A DNA stretch of 64,000 nt from Hoylesella nanceiensis DSM 19126 = JCM 15639. GTDB taxonomy: Bacteria; Bacteroidota; Bacteroidia; Bacteroidales; Bacteroidaceae. Position 1 is the first letter of the stretch, and each line of letters opens with the position of its first letter. The stretch lies in assembly GCF_000379965.1 (NCBI RefSeq), contig NZ_KB904327.1, positions 62,001 through 126,000 on the forward strand, in the 5' to 3' direction. Positions 8,234 to 60,070 of the stretch are shown here, piece after piece. The position numbers and the translations under genes were made by a program. The notes under the pieces are model-generated. The model ran no database searches. It saw nothing but the letters and a program-made list of their open reading frames with translations, and was not told the DNA's origin.

Positions 8234-8269
8234 TGTGCTTGTGAAATAATAACAATGAAAATATATTGG

Positions 8270-8334
8270 AATAGCATTGCTTTTACTCTTTAAAGGCAAT
8301 GCTTTTTTATGCAATAAGGGTGCTTTTATAAAGA
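8270..8334. repeat. 22-bp dyad array A (about three units)
   Basis: Cores CATTGC at 8275 and CAATGC at 8297 are 22 bp apart. A weak third unit starts near 8313. The first two units pair with each other, so the array also forms the cls terminator. See the finding on the repeat family. Confidence 0.65.
8273..8308 (+). terminator. Terminator after the cardiolipin-synthase-like gene
   Basis: AGCATTGC (8273-8280) pairs with GCAATGCT (8296-8303) and runs into six Ts. It lies between convergent genes and is built from two units of repeat array A. Confidence 0.6.
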
Positions 8335-12358: not shown

Positions 12359-12397
12359 CTTACTCCTATAAATAGTTACTGATCAATTGTTCGTTGA

Positions 12398-12476
12398 AAA
12401 AGCATTGCATTTGCGATGTAAACTCAATGCAGTTATATGCTAAAAGCAATGCTATTATAGTGTGAAAGCATCGCTT
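12398..12476. repeat. 22-bp dyad array B (four units)
   Basis: Cores CATTGC, CAATGC, CAATGC and CATCGC start at 12403, 12425, 12447 and 12469, exactly 22 bp apart. The last unit reaches the stop codon of the DegT-family gene. Lies between convergent genes. Confidence 0.8.
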
Positions 12477-13583
12477 TTATTCGATAGAGAACTTGTTTAT
12501 CAACTCTGAAATCATCTTCACATCATCAATTGACATTGTTTGATTGAGAGGGAGACTCAACTCTTGCGTATGAATTTGTTCTGTTATAGGAAAGGAAAGA
12601 TTGTTCCATTCGCTATAAGCACGTTGCAAATGAGGTGGAATGGGGTAGTGAATGAGGGTTTGTACGCCATTCTTAAGAAGATATTTCTGCAACTTTTCTC
12701 TATAAATAGTTAAGATAGGAAAGATGTGAAACACATTATCTGAGTCTGCATCTTGAAGTGGAAGGGTGATAAAAGAATGGTTAATTTGTTGTTGATACAC
12801 CTTTGCCAACAAACGTCTGTATTGATTTTCTTCGTCGAGATGTCTCAGTTTTACTCGAAGAATCGCTGCTTGCAGTTCGTCTAATCGTGAGTTTCTGCCT
12901 TTAACATCAAAGACATATTTTTGTGATGAACCATAATTAGCAATCGTTCTAATCATCTTTTCAAGCTCAGCATCATTGGTTGTAACAGCTCCACCATCGC
13001 CTAATGCTCCAAGATTCTTACCTGGATAAAAGCTATGTGCAGCCGCATCGCCTAACGAGCCTGTTCGTTTTGTATCGTAAAAGCAACCATGTGCCTGTGC
13101 ATTATCTTCGATTAATAAAAGATTATGTCGCTTGCAGAGATGAGATATACGTTTTGTAAAGGCGCATTTCCCATATAAGTGAACAATAACAATAGCTTTA
13201 GTATTTTCGGTTATTTGTGCATCTATCAACTCATCATCAATCTGTAAGGTGTTGATATTAGGCTCAATGAGTTTAATTTTTAATCCTAAAGAAGTGAGAG
13301 GGAGTATCGTTCCGATGTAAGTATTAGCAGGAACAAGAACCTCATCGCCTGGTTTTAGCTTGCCAAGTTCGAAGTATCCTTGTACAATAAGAGCGATAGC
13401 GTCTGAACCATTGCCACAACCTACACAATAATTGGTGCCGATGTATTGAGCATACTCATTTTCAAAAGCACGCACCTCGTTACCAAGAATAAACCAACCG
13501 CTATCAACCACTCGTTGAATAGCAGTGCTGATCTCTTCAGAATGTCTATTGGTTATCTCTTTAAGATTTAAATATTCAATCAT
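12477..13583 (-). CDS. DegT/DnrJ/EryC1/StrS-family sugar aminotransferase (QdtB/FdtB-like)
   Basis: 368 residues. PLP-dependent fold with GCGNGSDAI near the N-terminus and the catalytic Lys in [17 protein letters not shown]. These enzymes aminate keto-sugar nucleotides. As third gene after a QdtA/FdtA-type isomerase and an acyltransferase it probably makes dTDP-3-amino-3,6-dideoxyhexose. The frame is open to 13610, but ATG 13583 ([10 protein letters not shown]) overlaps the upstream stop by ATGA and matches family N-termini, so I chose it. The stereochemistry of the product (Fuc3N or Qui3N) cannot be decided here. Confidence 0.88.
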
Positions 13584-19616: not shown

Positions 19617-19829
19617 GTGTATAAACGTGCTTATTTGTGGCAAAAATACGTCTTTTCTGCAGTTCTTTGAGTTCAAAGATAGATGATGAATTGACCTCAT
19701 AAAAAGAAGAATTGAAAAGGATATGAAAAGATAATATATTTTAACGAGAGTGATATGAAAAACAATGTGCAGAGAGGTTTCTTTGGAGATGAAAAAGAGG
19801 TGAGTTTATTTTGCATTATCATTGTTTTC

Positions 19830-19917
19830 AAAAGCATTGAGTTTAGCTTATAAAAGCATTGATATTGAGATGCAAAAGCATTGTAATTAGAAGGTAAAAA
19901 CATAGCTTTTACTTTGC
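19830..19917. repeat. 22-bp dyad array C (four units)
   Basis: Cores CATTGA, CATTGA, CATTGT and CATAGC start at 19835, 19857, 19879 and 19901, exactly 22 bp apart. Lies between divergent promoters. Confidence 0.78.
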
Positions 19918-19988
19918 ATAGAGAATCAAACGAGTTAAAATATGGAACGTAAATACAATTAAATAAATGTAAATATATGTCGTGATTG

Positions 19989-20019
19989 TTGGGGAAGATA
20001 ATAAAAGAAAGTAAATTTG
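19989..20019 (+). promoter_or_regulatory. Promoter of xseA-xseB
   Basis: TTG (19989-19991), a 20-bp spacer and TAAATTTG (20012-20019). The start of transcription would be near 20025, leaving about 10 nt before ATG 20035 and ruling out the in-frame TTG at 20017. Confidence 0.6.
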
Positions 20020-20034
20020 TATTACATAAAAGAA

Positions 20035-21348
20035 ATGATGGAAAACAATAATTCACCAACACATTTAAGTCTATATCAACTGAATAATCTTGTTTCAGAA
20101 GTGATATCGCTTTCTTTTAACCAAGATTTTTGGGTAGAAGCAGAGATCTCTGAGATAAGAGAAGTGCGTGGACATTGTTATATTGAGTTGATAGAAAAAG
20201 ACGAAAAGATGAACACTCCCATTGCAAGAGCATCGGCAAAGTGTTGGAGCAACAAGTGGATGTTTATCAAACCACATTTCGAACGGGTTACAAGACAACA
20301 ACTAAAAGTAGGCATGAAGGTGCTCCTTAAGGTAGAAGCTCAATTTCATGAGGCCTTTGGATTTGCGTGGATTATCAATGATATCGATCCAACTTTCACC
20401 TTAGGAAGTATGGCTAAGAAGCGAAAGGATATCATCGACGCCCTAAAAGCACAGGGAGTGTATGATTTGCAGAAAGAACTTTACATGCCTTTGTTTGCAA
20501 AACGCATTGCAGTTATATCGAGCGAGGGTGCTGCAGGCTATGGAGATTTTATGCAACACCTTGTTCATAACGAGTATGGTTTTGTATTTGAAGTAACTCT
20601 TTTCAATGCAGTTATGCAAGGAGAGGGCATAGAACAAAGCGTTATTTCGGCTTTAAACGCTATAAATGATAAGCTTTCGCAGTTCGATGTTGTTGTAATG
20701 ATAAGAGGAGGTGGTGGAACTAGCGACTTAAGTGGATTCGATTCGCTTGCATTAGCTGAGAATATTGCTAACTTTCCCATTCCTGTTATAACTGGAATAG
20801 GGCACGATAGAGACGAGAGCGTGCTCGATTTGATTTCTTTTGAGCAAGTGAAAACACCAACTGCTGCGGCCGATTACTTTATAAATCACGCTCTTCGAGT
20901 GTATAGTAGAATAGATACACTACAGCAGTATGTGGTGACTTATGCTCAAAACAGAATAGAATTAGAACGCAACAAGTTGCAACGCTTGGCAGAAAAGGTT
21001 CCTATTGTGTTTTCGGTTGTAAAGACAAAGCAAGAAGGATATATACAACAACTGCTACAACGACTTGCAATTGGAATGCAATCTGCCATCAGTCATCAAC
21101 AAAGAACAGTAGAGATGCTGGCTCAACGATTGAATAATGCGCCCAAATATATTTTGAATAGTGAGCAACATCGCCTAACTCTTTTAAATGAAAAAATAAA
21201 AAGTTTAGACCCACAGCGCATTCTTGAGCGAGGATATTCAATCACTCTGCATAATGGAAAGAGTGTTCTACATGCAAAAGAGCTTAAAAAAGGCGACGAG
21301 ATAAAGACACAATTCAAAGATGGTATCATAACATCTATTATAAAATAA
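20035..21348 (+). CDS. xseA: Exodeoxyribonuclease VII large subunit
   Basis: 437 residues. The N-terminal OB fold (FWVEAEISEIREVRGHCYIELIEKD) is followed by the nuclease core with AVISSEGAAGYGDF and VVMIRGGGGTSDLSGFD, then TGIGHDRDESVLDLISFEQVKTPTAAADYF, the XseA signature. A coiled-coil region follows and the end is ERGYSITLHNGKSV. With XseB it degrades single-stranded DNA from both ends. I place the start at ATG 20035 (MMENNNSP), or ATG 20038, because the promoter overlaps the upstream TTG. xseB follows after 3 bp. Confidence 0.95.
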   Translation: MMENNNSPTHLSLYQLNNLVSEVISLSFNQDFWVEAEISEIREVRGHCYIELIEKDEKMNTPIARASAKCWSNKWMFIKPHFERVTRQQLKVGMKVLLKVEAQFHEAFGFAWIINDIDPTFTLGSMAKKRKDIIDALKAQGVYDLQKELYMPLFAKRIAVISSEGAAGYGDFMQHLVHNEYGFVFEVTLFNAVMQGEGIEQSVISALNAINDKLSQFDVVVMIRGGGGTSDLSGFDSLALAENIANFPIPVITGIGHDRDESVLDLISFEQVKTPTAAADYFINHALRVYSRIDTLQQYVVTYAQNRIELERNKLQRLAEKVPIVFSVVKTKQEGYIQQLLQRLAIGMQSAISHQQRTVEMLAQRLNNAPKYILNSEQHRLTLLNEKIKSLDPQRILERGYSITLHNGKSVLHAKELKKGDEIKTQFKDGIITSIIK

Positions 21349-24812: not shown

Positions 24813-24845
24813 GCCCAATAAGACTGTTTCTTATTGGGCTTTTTG
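24813..24845 (+). terminator. Terminator of mrp
   Basis: GCCCAATAAG (24813-24822) and CTTATTGGGC (24830-24839) are perfect 10-bp arms around a 7-base loop, followed by six Ts. One of the clearest in the window. Confidence 0.85.
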
Positions 24846-24926
24846 TTTCTCTTGCTTTCTGATACTCTTGCCCTTTGTTTTCAAGAGTAATGTGTTAGAT
24901 TTAGTGTCTCCATTCCTATATATACT

Positions 24927-24992
24927 AAAAGCAATGCAATTATGTGATAAAAGCACTGCTATTGTAAGCTAAAGTCAATGCTTTTATAGGGT
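24927..24992. repeat. 22-bp dyad array D (three units)
   Basis: Cores CAATGC, CACTGC and CAATGC start at 24932, 24954 and 24976, exactly 22 bp apart. Lies between two co-directional genes, well away from both. Confidence 0.8.
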
Positions 24993-25182
24993 AATTATAT
25001 TGTTATTTAAAAAGATAAAGAGTCTATGAATAAGCGGAACGATTTGAAACTCTTCTTATTCTGTTTGTGGTTGGAGTAGAATAGGGTAGGTGCTTGCTGG
25101 TTATTGCATTGCTTAAATGTGAAAAATAAATACAATTTAGTGCATTATTTAATAAATTTCAACCTAATATGTAGTGTGTAAT

Positions 25183-34142: not shown

Positions 34143-34388
34143 ATAATAATCCCTCTTCTTTCTTCTTTAATCGTGCGTGAAATCTGGGCTATTTCGCCTT
34201 TATATACAAAGAAAATCAACATAGCTATGTTCTATTTTAATAGATGTATTTCAACGAGGAAGAAATGATTTTCTTAATGCTAATGATTCTGTTTTCTCAT
34301 CATTTCTTAGTCTTTTTGTGTCGCTTTGTTATCTTAATAAATAGATAAACAATATAGATCGAAACTAAAAGCTATTCTTTTTCATTGT

Positions 34389-34454
34389 AAAGTCAATGCT
34401 TTTGTAGTGTAATAACATTGCTTTTATATGCCAAAAGCATTGCTATTGCAAGTT
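34389..34454. repeat. 22-bp dyad array E (three units)
   Basis: Cores CAATGC, CATTGC and CATTGC start at 34394, 34416 and 34438, exactly 22 bp apart. A degenerate fourth unit (CTATTC at 34372) is in phase. Lies 85 bp before the dnaB promoter. Confidence 0.8.
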
Positions 34455-38883: not shown

Positions 38884-39155
38884 CATAATTTATCTGGAAT
38901 AATGAAGCATTAAAGATAGAAATCTTTATAAAAGAGGGAATATAAAGGTGTAATTAAACAAGAAGAATAAATAAGGTGTTTGTTAACCATAATAAGATAG
39001 GATAATAAAAGCGTTGCTTTTGTAGTGTAATGTCAATGCTTTTAGATTGTAATTGCAATGCAATTACATGGTAAACTCATTGCTTTTAGAAAGTGGTTAG
39101 TTGATGATTAAAAGCGACTTGTTATGCTTATTTCTAGCAAATGGAGTGGGGAGAT
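38884..39155. other. Gap holding repeat array F
   Basis: Besides array F I see nothing coding here. Confidence 0.6.
39007..39094. repeat. 22-bp dyad array F (four units)
   Basis: Cores CGTTGC, CAATGC, CAATGC and CATTGC start at 39012, 39034, 39056 and 39078, exactly 22 bp apart. One of the best preserved arrays. Lies between two minus-strand genes. Confidence 0.82.
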
Positions 39156-39999: not shown

Positions 40000-41037
40000 C
40001 TATATTGTTATCTCTCCTGCAAGGGGAATTTGCATTAAACGGATTAGTTCTTCGTTGGGCAAGTTCATTGCTTTTAGGTGCATAAGCTTTGTTGCTGCCG
40101 CCTCAACAGTAGAGTCGAAACCACTAATAACGCCTGCACTTTGAAGCTGATGGCCTGTTTCGTAGCGGTACATTTCAACCTTTCCCGATATACATTGACT
40201 GATGTTTACAATAGTAACTCCACGTTCTGAGGCTTTAGAAAGAAGGTTCATGAGCCATTGTTGATGTGGAGCATTACCGCTTCCATAACTTCTTATGATT
40301 ACACCCTCAAGTTCGGGAGCATCAAAGATGTGCTTTGTTATATTCTCTTGTATGCCTGGAAAGAGTGAAAGAATAACGATATTGGGATTTAACTCTTTGT
40401 GCATTACTGTTGGTTTGCTATAGTTGGGCTTGAGAATAGCGTATTCGTGAAAGCGAATATTAACGCCAACATCGCATAAACGAGGATAGTTGAAGCTGTC
40501 GAAAGCGTCGAAACCATCTGCATTTCGTTTCGTACTGCGGTTTCCTCTAATAAGTTGTCCGTTGAAATAGATCGATACTTCGGGCACTAGAGGGTAACCC
40601 TCATTGTTGTGTGCTGCTGCTAATTCGATACTGGTGATGAGGTTTTCTTTTCCATCTGTGCGCAACTGTCCTATAGGAAGCTGACTTCCTGTAAGTATGA
40701 TGGGCTTTGTTAGATTCTCTATCATGAACGAAAGGGCAGAAGCAGTGTACGACATGGTGTCTGTTCCGTGAAGAATAACAAAACCATCATATTGATTATA
40801 TTTCTCTTCTATTAATGAAACAAGACGTGTCCACAGTTCAGGTGCCATATCACTTGAATCGATTGGCGGTGTGAACTGATAGGTGTCGACTGCTGTTTTT
40901 AAGTATGTAAACTCAGGAACGTTATTCACAAAGTTGTTAAAGTCTAACGGATGCAATGCACCTGTAGCGTGATTAACACCCATTCCAATGGTTCCACCAG
41001 TGTATATGAGCAATACTTTACCTTTTCGTGTCATCAT
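40000..41037 (-). CDS. ansA: Type I L-asparaginase
   Basis: 345 residues. IYTGGTIGM holds the first catalytic Thr and HGTDTMSYTASALSFM the second Thr-Asp pair; the Lys is in LTGSQLPIG and below. No signal peptide, so it is the cytosolic low-affinity type that turns asparagine into aspartate and ammonia. It follows rlmD by 34 bp and is probably in the same operon. Confidence 0.93.
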   Translation of the reverse strand: MMTRKGKVLLIYTGGTIGMGVNHATGALHPLDFNNFVNNVPEFTYLKTAVDTYQFTPPIDSSDMAPELWTRLVSLIEEKYNQYDGFVILHGTDTMSYTASALSFMIENLTKPIILTGSQLPIGQLRTDGKENLITSIELAAAHNNEGYPLVPEVSIYFNGQLIRGNRSTKRNADGFDAFDSFNYPRLCDVGVNIRFHEYAILKPNYSKPTVMHKELNPNIVILSLFPGIQENITKHIFDAPELEGVIIRSYGSGNAPHQQWLMNLLSKASERGVTIVNISQCISGKVEMYRYETGHQLQSAGVISGFDSTVEAAATKLMHLKAMNLPNEELIRLMQIPLAGEITI

Positions 41038-48612: not shown

Positions 48613-48651
48613 TAAATCCTTTGTAGTGCTATAGAATTACTTCCTATATCT

Positions 48652-48739
48652 TTTTGCAGTGCTTTTACCTTTCAATAGCACTGCTTTTAGGGTGTAATAG
48701 CATTGCTTTTATCGTGCAAACTCATTGCTTTTTCATTAT
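48652..48739. repeat. 22-bp dyad array G (four units)
   Basis: Cores CAGTGC, CACTGC, CATTGC and CATTGC start at 48657, 48679, 48701 and 48723, exactly 22 bp apart. All four units carry TTTT after the core. Confidence 0.82.
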
Positions 48740-59882: not shown

Positions 59883-59982
59883 TATTGTAGAAGATAGTTT
59901 GAAGTATTTGAAGAGGGTATGTATGCTCTTTTTCTATATACCATCAATAATCTATCCTAAAGACTTGTTCTTATGTGATTGA

Positions 59983-60070
59983 AAAAGCTATGCTATTGTA
60001 TTCTAAAAGTAATCTTTTTATATAGTAGAAGTAATCCTTTTATAAGATAATAACAATGCTTTTGTGATGT
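59983..60070. repeat. 22-bp dyad array H (four units)
   Basis: Cores CTATGC, TAATCT, TAATCC and CAATGC start at 59988, 60010, 60032 and 60054, exactly 22 bp apart. The two middle units are eroded but keep the phase. Between convergent genes. Confidence 0.72.

Follow-up and report, generated by a model that had tools for sequence, protein, structure and literature searches.

matS/MatP, Noc sites and parS are dispersed palindromic protein sites that are under selection, organise the chromosome and occur as single sites. The arrays that we describe here for Hoylesella nanceiensis are unlike these single sites: they mostly consist of four dyads in fixed phase, they lie on all four contigs sampled, and their dyad changes between species. 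Little seems to be known about chromosome organisation in Bacteroidota, and in the open-access literature we found neither genome-wide nucleoid-protein binding data for this phylum nor a description of these 22-bp dyad arrays. Among described repeats, PINSR is reported as a 188-bp intergenic repeat that is specific to the P. intermedia/nigrescens group and present in 177–184 copies in P. intermedia (PMC4755523). In E. coli, the gyrase motif is described as spanning 130 bp with flanks of 10.75-bp periodicity, and gyrase sites are found in BIME-2 elements (PMC6379681); gyrase motifs are also treated in PMC12393610.

The window, i.e. the whole 64-kb stretch of DNA analysed, contains 57 matches to AAAAGCAWTGCTTTTA with at most three mismatches compared with 5.8 expected, and none of 100 shuffles reached this number. 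The recurrence of a CAWTGC-type motif, as given in a preliminary description of this DNA, is thus borne out. All eight arrays were located where that description had placed them, seven in register at a 22-bp core step and the first with steps of 21 and 22 bp, again as claimed. The repeating dyad, however, measures about 21 bp instead of the 15 bp given earlier, with the unit consensus TGYAAAAGCA-W-TGCTTTTRCA plus one base making up the 22-bp step, and we count 32 units instead of about 28, including by eye the displaced fourth unit of the first array. Scored with a 22-column profile, seven arrays show four in-register units and reach 63–80 bits; in the first array three units are in register, and by eye the fourth, which lacks one base, lies 21 bp further along. 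That no unit lies fully inside a gene holds for the six arrays free of ORF calls (simple calls of at least 80 aa), but the array at 12395 overlaps an ORF and the array at 19827 lies inside a 121-aa frame with a GTG start (19697–20062, minus strand), which is taken as a putative spurious ORF. The single site listed last in Table 1 is probably a chance match or a relic; in 464 kb of the genome, 15 isolated units outside arrays reach 14 bits, this site among them.

Table 1 Dyad arrays and an isolated unit-like site in the 64-kb window.
Position	Feature	Strand	Score (bits)	Unit scores (bits)	Neighbouring positions (bits)	Context
8245..8332	Degenerate array, three in-register units and a fourth displaced by 1 bp	.	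33.5	6, 23, 16, -12		Convergent gap; below the 45-bit cut
12395..12482	Four-unit 22-bp dyad array	.	72.3	22, 12, 23, 16	-21/-14	Convergent gap; overlaps an ORF end by 6 bp
19827..19914	Four-unit 22-bp dyad array	.	75.6	18, 19, 20, 19		Between MATE transporter and exonuclease VII large-subunit genes
24924..25011	Four-unit 22-bp dyad array	.	63.0	18, 20, 16, 8		Co-directional gap, downstream of ApbC/Mrp-like gene
34364..34451	Four-unit 22-bp dyad array	.	80.2	15, 18, 22, 25		Divergent gap, upstream of dnaB
39004..39091	Four-unit 22-bp dyad array (array of the original finding)	.	76.6	18, 18, 21, 20	-10/-16	Adjoins rubrerythrin gene
48649..48736	Four-unit 22-bp dyad array	.	73.6	11, 20, 24, 18		Co-directional gap
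59980..60067	Four-unit 22-bp dyad array	.	65.2	19, 15, 12, 19		Convergent gap, downstream of carB-like gene (carbamoyl-phosphate synthase domains)
40058..40079	Isolated single unit-like site	.	15.2

Across the own genome (G000; 2.65 Mb, 12 contigs), the pattern AAAGCAWTGCTTTT with at most two mismatches gave 820 forward matches, compared with 43 for the reversed-pattern control. In a 464-kb sample comprising the window and 20 stretches of the same genome, motif pairs occur at distances of 22 bp (104 pairs), 44 bp (67), 66 bp (33) and 88 bp (1), and a shuffled copy gave none at these distances. The motif excess and the 22-bp spacing peak, which the preliminary description had proposed to look for genome-wide, are clear, and the 3:2:1 ratio at 22, 44 and 66 bp is expected of arrays of four. 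A profile built from 65 arrays gave mean scores of -14 and -11 bits for the two positions on one side, 15, 17, 18 and 16 bits for the four units, and -14 and -12 bits for the two positions on the other side; the reversed sequence scanned with this profile yielded no arrays. With a cut of 45 bits, which is used for all array counts and which excludes the degenerate array at 8245–8332, we found 114 arrays in 1.01 Mb of the own genome, or one per 8.9 kb. If the remainder is alike, the total can be estimated at about 300. A fifth unit is present in only three of these 114 arrays, and the selection by the sum of four units penalises two-unit arrays, not longer ones. Counting chains without fixing the number at four gave 55 fours, 20 threes, 10 twos and 2 fives on the own contig C1. 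On chromosome II of the sister genome, Prevotella sp. oral taxon 299 F0039 (G292; its contig C1 corresponds to NC_022111.1), 45 chains had four units, ten had three, four had two, one had five and one had six.

With regard to gene context, 57 of the 65 arrays in the 464-kb sample overlap no ORF call, five overlap one partly and three wholly, though 86% of the bases lie within ORF calls; the intergenic enrichment that was to be checked is therefore present. Of 167 arrays from the own pieces and F0039 chromosome II (7 unplaced), the 131 convergent gaps hold 52, the 126 divergent gaps 23 and the 414 co-directional gaps 85. All three contexts are occupied, in agreement with the earlier claim, with a bias towards convergent over divergent gaps (p 2e-4).

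The arrays also keep a distance from each other. On all four own pieces together, a single one of the 110 distances between neighbours is shorter than 2 kb, compared with about 18 expected. On C1 none of 71 distances falls below 2 kb (8.7 expected when gaps are drawn by length) and one below 3 kb (13.4 expected). The 80-kb C5 piece agrees (p 0.02–0.04), in the 100-kb C2 piece the avoidance holds below 2 kb and not below 3 kb, and the 60-kb C7 piece, which is too small, gave no significant result. On F0039 chromosome II there is a trend that does not reach significance (3 of 52 distances below 2 kb, null 6.2, p 0.11), and the spacing is more uneven than under the null (CV 1.19 vs 0.98). The sole own-genome exception below 2 kb is a pair of arrays 132 bp apart on the C2 piece (96583 and 96715, L021), which carry an identical 156-bp stretch; this stretch is a local duplication.

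Comparison with F0039 revealed that the arrays are kept in place. When arrays of at least 24 bits in F0039 are counted as retained, 31 of the 33 own arrays (out of 114) with both flanks collinear in the F0039 parts compared are present there, and in the reverse direction 29 of 29. The preliminary description had asked for conservation of array position, and these counts supply it. At one of the two remaining positions F0039 has a decayed array of equal length and at the other a two-unit remnant, 44 bp shorter, so that the empty sites at collinear positions expected of a MITE were not found. In ten ortholog pairs in register, the cores differ at 93 of 560 positions (17%) and the spacers at 113 of 320 (35%; p 6e-10), and the mean change in profile score is -6 bits compared with -55 bits expected from random substitutions; these pairs, two of them with weak partners, were picked at 24 bits or more in F0039 and for an alignable register, which favours conserved ones. 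Left out of this comparison were 354485/438372 (located within a gene), 259803/444124 (offset by one unit) and, as rearranged junctions with unclear register, 348792/444124, 611497/359717 and 134723/448268. Cores thus change half as often as spacers, and the earlier suggestion that selection acts on spacing and dyad, not on exact copies, is upheld. Collinear retention and slow dyad change indicate that the arrays are inherited in place with their dyads under purifying selection. In a single case, an ortholog array is shifted by one unit and still has four units in both species.

The two halves of the dyad were further analyzed for signs of pairing. Mutual information between palindromic partner positions equals that of shuffles, i.e. 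the halves do not co-vary, and adjacent bases inside one half-site co-vary strongly. Units with two perfect half-sites are depleted (19 of 244 vs about 31 expected; Fisher p 0.0008), and the self-complementarity of units is below that of shuffled sequence in most comparisons (z down to -7). Independent halves and avoided self-complementarity argue for double-stranded protein sites and not for hairpins; the units look like double-stranded sites read by a putative dimer with an affinity held near an optimum, and an RNA or cruciform hairpin is disfavoured. Compensatory changes in a stem-loop unit, as expected of REP/BIME elements, were likewise not found. Independent half-sites, constant spacing and stronger selection on the dyad than on the spacer, as expected of an array binding several dimers, were all observed. 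The half-site AATAGCA, which breaks the A-tract, is among the commonest variants.

Two units of the same array resemble each other hardly more than two units taken from different arrays (identity 0.606 vs 0.585 in the own genome), and tandem duplication by slippage was rejected on this basis; weak positive direct-repeat signals within arrays (z up to 4.5) allow a small contribution of slippage. The flanks of the 65 profiled arrays carry little information. Some arrays of P. nigrescens and H. saccharolytica are palindromic over their whole length, which was not seen for the own and F0039 arrays.

Two-unit matches to the own form of the motif were found in 35 of 299 Prevotella genomes, with 391 in the own genome, 289 in F0039, 213 in G039, 36 in G208, 26 in G244, 24 in G012, 16 in G231 and fewer in the others; the remaining 264 genomes have none. 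Among the matches listed, loci with the exact pattern occur in P. brunnea, P. illustrans, P. ruminicola, Hoylesella marshii, H. saccharolytica and rumen MAGs. Four units are again frequent, in 23 of 28 arrays of P. brunnea, 46 of 69 of Cattle_2_mag_37 (G039; 17 more have five) and 4 of 9 of P. illustrans. UBA3627 has five units in four of its five arrays and six in the other. In 150 kb of P. nigrescens, a lattice scan at 22 bp found ten four-unit arrays with TGYAAAA-N7-TTTTRCA and other cores; the reversed control gave none. In a few of these arrays the scores of the units overlap with those of the adjoining positions, and one of them resembles three units, so that four is the usual but not the exact number there. 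A self-blast of P. nigrescens for recurrent repeats returned CRISPR repeats only; these lie at L241 8667–14400 on the 568-kb replicon and adjoin cas9 and cas2.

Besides this form, two non-A dyads (types B and C) occur at the same step. H. marshii has 56 two-unit matches of TGGATAAC..ATTATCCA and 10 of TGTATAAT..ATTATACA, and the latter dyads are also found in G026 (49) and G003 (17); reversed-pattern controls for both scans were zero in each of 200 genomes, and one further match lies in G162. Unit numbers are more variable in these arrays. In H. marshii (L346, L348, L349, L350, L351), five to ten units of the two dyads, some mixed in one array, were seen, and three of these loci share a leader. 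In G026 and G003 (L333–L345), TGTATAAYNNRTTATACA arrays run at 22-bp steps, and several end in TTCTACACGTT or a near variant. The five-unit arrays of UBA3627 and G039 and the up to ten units of types B and C in H. marshii indicate that four is not universal. Altogether, the 22-bp geometry is shared by arrays of P. brunnea, P. illustrans, P. nigrescens and other species, with cores that differ and, in some cases, dyads that are unrelated. In the family beyond the genus, a single generic-lattice match was obtained in each of 6 out of 141 sampled genomes, and the reversed control gave two.

The relatives also differ in how far the similarity between arrays extends. It covers about 340–380 bp in UBA3627 (L077, L083, L135, L147) and about 300–420 bp in H. 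saccharolytica (L179 at 2999, 13829 and 19435, and L061), where the arrays belong to larger dispersed repeats, some with inverted ends in H. saccharolytica. In the own genome, array-to-array alignments among the matches listed are mostly 76–120 bp long, with one identical 156-bp pair. Shared sequence beyond the unit and defined ends, as expected of a MITE, are therefore seen in UBA3627, H. saccharolytica and the type B and C arrays of H. marshii but, among the matches listed, not in the own genome. Accordingly, the alternative raised in the preliminary description, a repeat family spread by an unknown mechanism, fits some relatives and fits the own genome poorly. The Y1/RAYT transposase domain PF01797 was not found in G000, G292, G039, G208, G012, G231, G046 and G221, which led us to reject RAYT-driven REP elements for the own genome; it is present in 17 of 32 genomes searched, including the array carriers G244, G215 and G116.

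Several arrays are interrupted by mobile elements. In the own genome, an 18.9-kb integrative mobilizable element (C1 ~176.3–195.2 kb, from L011 10298 to L012 9200) splits an array into 2+2 units. The ten ORFs scanned include two tyrosine recombinases, a MobA/VirD2-like relaxase, proteins with VapE and Toprim domains, an outer-membrane efflux protein and a P-type ATPase. A copy in F0039 (chromosome II, 493338–512244) is 97.9% identical between the sister species and has four units on its left and one on its right, the left array being orthologous to an intact array of the own genome. A second, diverged element at C1 ~573.7–586.2 kb, which is 70–76% similar to the first in matching blocks and whose integrase gene is broken, likewise divides an array into 2+2 units. 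A left-end pattern found 14 copies in 8 of 200 genomes of the genus (control 0). Ten of these left ends are flush with 22-bp units: five with units of type A, these five having themselves served to write the pattern, and five with units of types B and C, as judged by eye. For two more, both in G124 and sharing one flank, type-A units end at a distance of 22 bp, and the remaining two are without a clear array. For three elements array units are found on both ends. Among 20 regions beside integrase genes, five have clear array units at the element end, three of which are also among the 14 left ends, and two have weaker ones. Independent integrations at the site, as expected of an attachment site for tandem-integrase mobilizable elements, are thus observed. 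At L306 and L313, element left ends adjoin AAATTT-centred dyads at a 22-bp step, which are possibly a further dyad type.

Arrays are furthermore associated with synteny breaks between the own genome and F0039. Contig C1 (769 kb) and F0039 chromosome II (710 kb) have no more than 28 aligned blocks with a length of 700 bp or above, which total 160 kb at 91% mean identity, and the other own pieces map to the large F0039 chromosome. When gaps of 120 bp or more are considered for which both flanks could be located, 15 array gaps are broken and 30 collinear, compared with 10 and 80 control gaps (p 0.004); at 200 bp or more the counts are 15 and 25 compared with 4 and 42 (p 0.002). Scoring one-sided flank matches as broken gives 49 of 79 arrays compared with 63 of 143 controls (p 0.012). 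Gaps with weak arrays were excluded from the controls. Where collinearity is lost, F0039 lacks an array at 42 of 60 flank ends, which indicates loss or gain of arrays in the course of rearrangement: arrays may decay soon after being broken, or new ones may form at the junctions. As an example, a 9.7-kb block that has arrays at both of its ends in the own genome (joined C1 coordinates 277306, 496716 and 506530) is split and inverted in the large F0039 chromosome (~283–302 kb), and no arrays were detected at the F0039 joints. Recombination between arrays giving chimeras was not accepted as an explanation: among three junctions aligned, the single weak support was a 13-bp match, which was not counted.

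The best explanation, to which we assign a probability of roughly 0.45, could be a fixed platform of four adjoining dyads for putative homodimers, which would serve as a landmark of chromosome architecture and be exploited as an attachment site. Homodimers of a putative sequence-specific DNA-binding protein would occupy each of the four dyads. The step of 22 bp, about two helical turns, would align the four dimers next to each other along the same face of the helix, where they might form one defined complex over 88 bp. The approximately 300 platforms, mostly between genes, spaced at about one per 9 kb and almost never less than 2 kb apart, could then mark the ends of domains, anchor loops or serve as sites of topological control. 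Mobilizable elements with tandem integrases insert between the units, and arrays mark rearranged places. Here, we infer the binding of a dimeric host protein, the joint action of four dimers and the architectural role, the last on the basis of the number and spacing of the arrays, their gene context and their independence of orientation. The cooperative binding array proposed in the preliminary description would be the most economical reading of the sequence. The usual four-unit limit, the convergent-gap bias, the mutual avoidance, the use as integration sites and the genus-wide family with changing dyads go beyond that description. A bolder version remains tentative: Prevotella and its close kin might possess an undescribed architecture system with an old geometry (a 22-bp step and about four units), in which the recognised dyad would differ from species to species in the manner of a fast-evolving centromere code, the bound platform would be a universal landing site for mobile elements and chromosomes would break and rejoin there.

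Other readings of the arrays draw on parts of the same evidence. They could be DNA topology sites, intrinsically bent by A/T tracts that alternate with CA/TG steps at 11-bp intervals, which capture gyrase or a wrapping protein downstream of genes as BIME-2 does in E. coli; we regard this as doubtful. The convergent-gap bias fits it, as do the 11-bp AA/TT periodicity (power 6.0 in own arrays and 8.7 in P. nigrescens vs 1.4 in other intergenic DNA) and the bend predicted from wedge values per 88 bp (64 and 96 degrees vs 41–43 for shuffled and 45 for other intergenic DNA), both of which are partly built in because the arrays were found by a profile or lattice holding A/T tracts. Judged from its description, however, the gyrase motif has two 47-bp periodic arms around a 36-bp non-periodic centre, whereas the arrays have no such centre and are continuous over 88 bp. 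The common AATAGCA half-sites interrupt the A-tract, and types B and C in H. marshii and in G026 and G003 keep the step without A4/T4 tracts, on which ground curved DNA as the sole explanation was rejected; the common denominator is the 22-bp dyad step, and curvature may help wrapping. It is very improbable that the arrays act at the RNA level, as transcribed hairpins that end transcription or protect mRNA 3' ends: their preference for convergent gaps would fit, but the missing pair covariation and the avoided self-complementarity speak against it and led us to reject the hairpin or terminator reading, and by eye a terminator-like hairpin (~24813–24846) precedes the separate array at 24924.

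Two further readings invoke mobility. That the arrays are attachment sites, or relics of such sites, of integrative mobilizable elements with a tyrosine-recombinase system, whose recombination shuffles gene blocks, is unlikely in our view, even though the two diverged own elements split arrays 2+2, the F0039 copy has 4+1 units, 12 of 14 left ends lie flush with or 22 bp from the units (five of the 14 having been used for the pattern) and array gaps are broken in 15 of 45 cases compared with 10 of 90 without arrays. Most arrays examined carry no element, and the collinear ones are kept with dyad selection; no array was shown to be an excision product, clear chimeric arrays were not found apart from the one weak case, and arrays and breakpoints may both merely avoid transcription units. 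Quite unlikely, finally, is a dispersed repeat or MITE family in which the arrays are old copies of a transposable repeat with an inner 22-bp array and no present function. The extended similarity around arrays in UBA3627 and H. saccharolytica, the leader sequences common to type B and C arrays of H. marshii and the precedent of PINSR point in this direction. Against it stand the low-information flanks and nearly equal unit identities within and between arrays of the own genome, the collinear retention with slower change in dyads than in spacers, and the absence of PF01797 from the eight genomes named above, own genome included, with the domain being present in three other carriers.

On the platform reading, about 300 selected, position-conserved sites of fixed size would provide a direct handle on chromosome organisation in Bacteroidota and an exact DNA bait for a protein search. 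Such a network would explain a preference of mobilizable elements for certain landing sites in Prevotella and Hoylesella, and the arrays may point to a source of rearrangements between close relatives.

Compared with known systems, the arrays resemble the enterobacterial BIME/REP elements in being short, intergenic, palindrome-like clustered units, BIME-2 being described as gyrase sites (PMC6379681). Unlike these, they show no hairpin selection and have a strict 22-bp phase, usually four units, diverged units and a host without a RAYT gene. The BrickBuilt MITE of Porphyromonas gingivalis, also of the Bacteroidales, is likewise intergenic and built of tandem 23-nt units, but it is described with a leader, a tail, terminal inverted repeats, a variable unit number and predicted long stem-loops, in 19 copies in ATCC 33277 (PMC4596501). 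The mobilizable transposons MTnPi1-3 of P. intermedia, for which two tandem integrases and similar 11-bp attachment sequences are reported, are reminiscent of the elements inserted in arrays; they are guests, unlike the arrays themselves (PMC4755523). PINSR shares with the arrays an intergenic, non-coding nature, more than 100 copies per genome, conservation of about three quarters of positions between strains and a tie to some rearrangements (PMC4755523), and its density is resembled by the ten 22-bp arrays in 150 kb of P. nigrescens. It differs in having one 188-bp consensus, and the passages on PINSR describe no 22-bp lattice, the comparison being one of descriptions only (PMC4755523). PINSR may be a relative of the arrays, or the same family seen earlier without its lattice.
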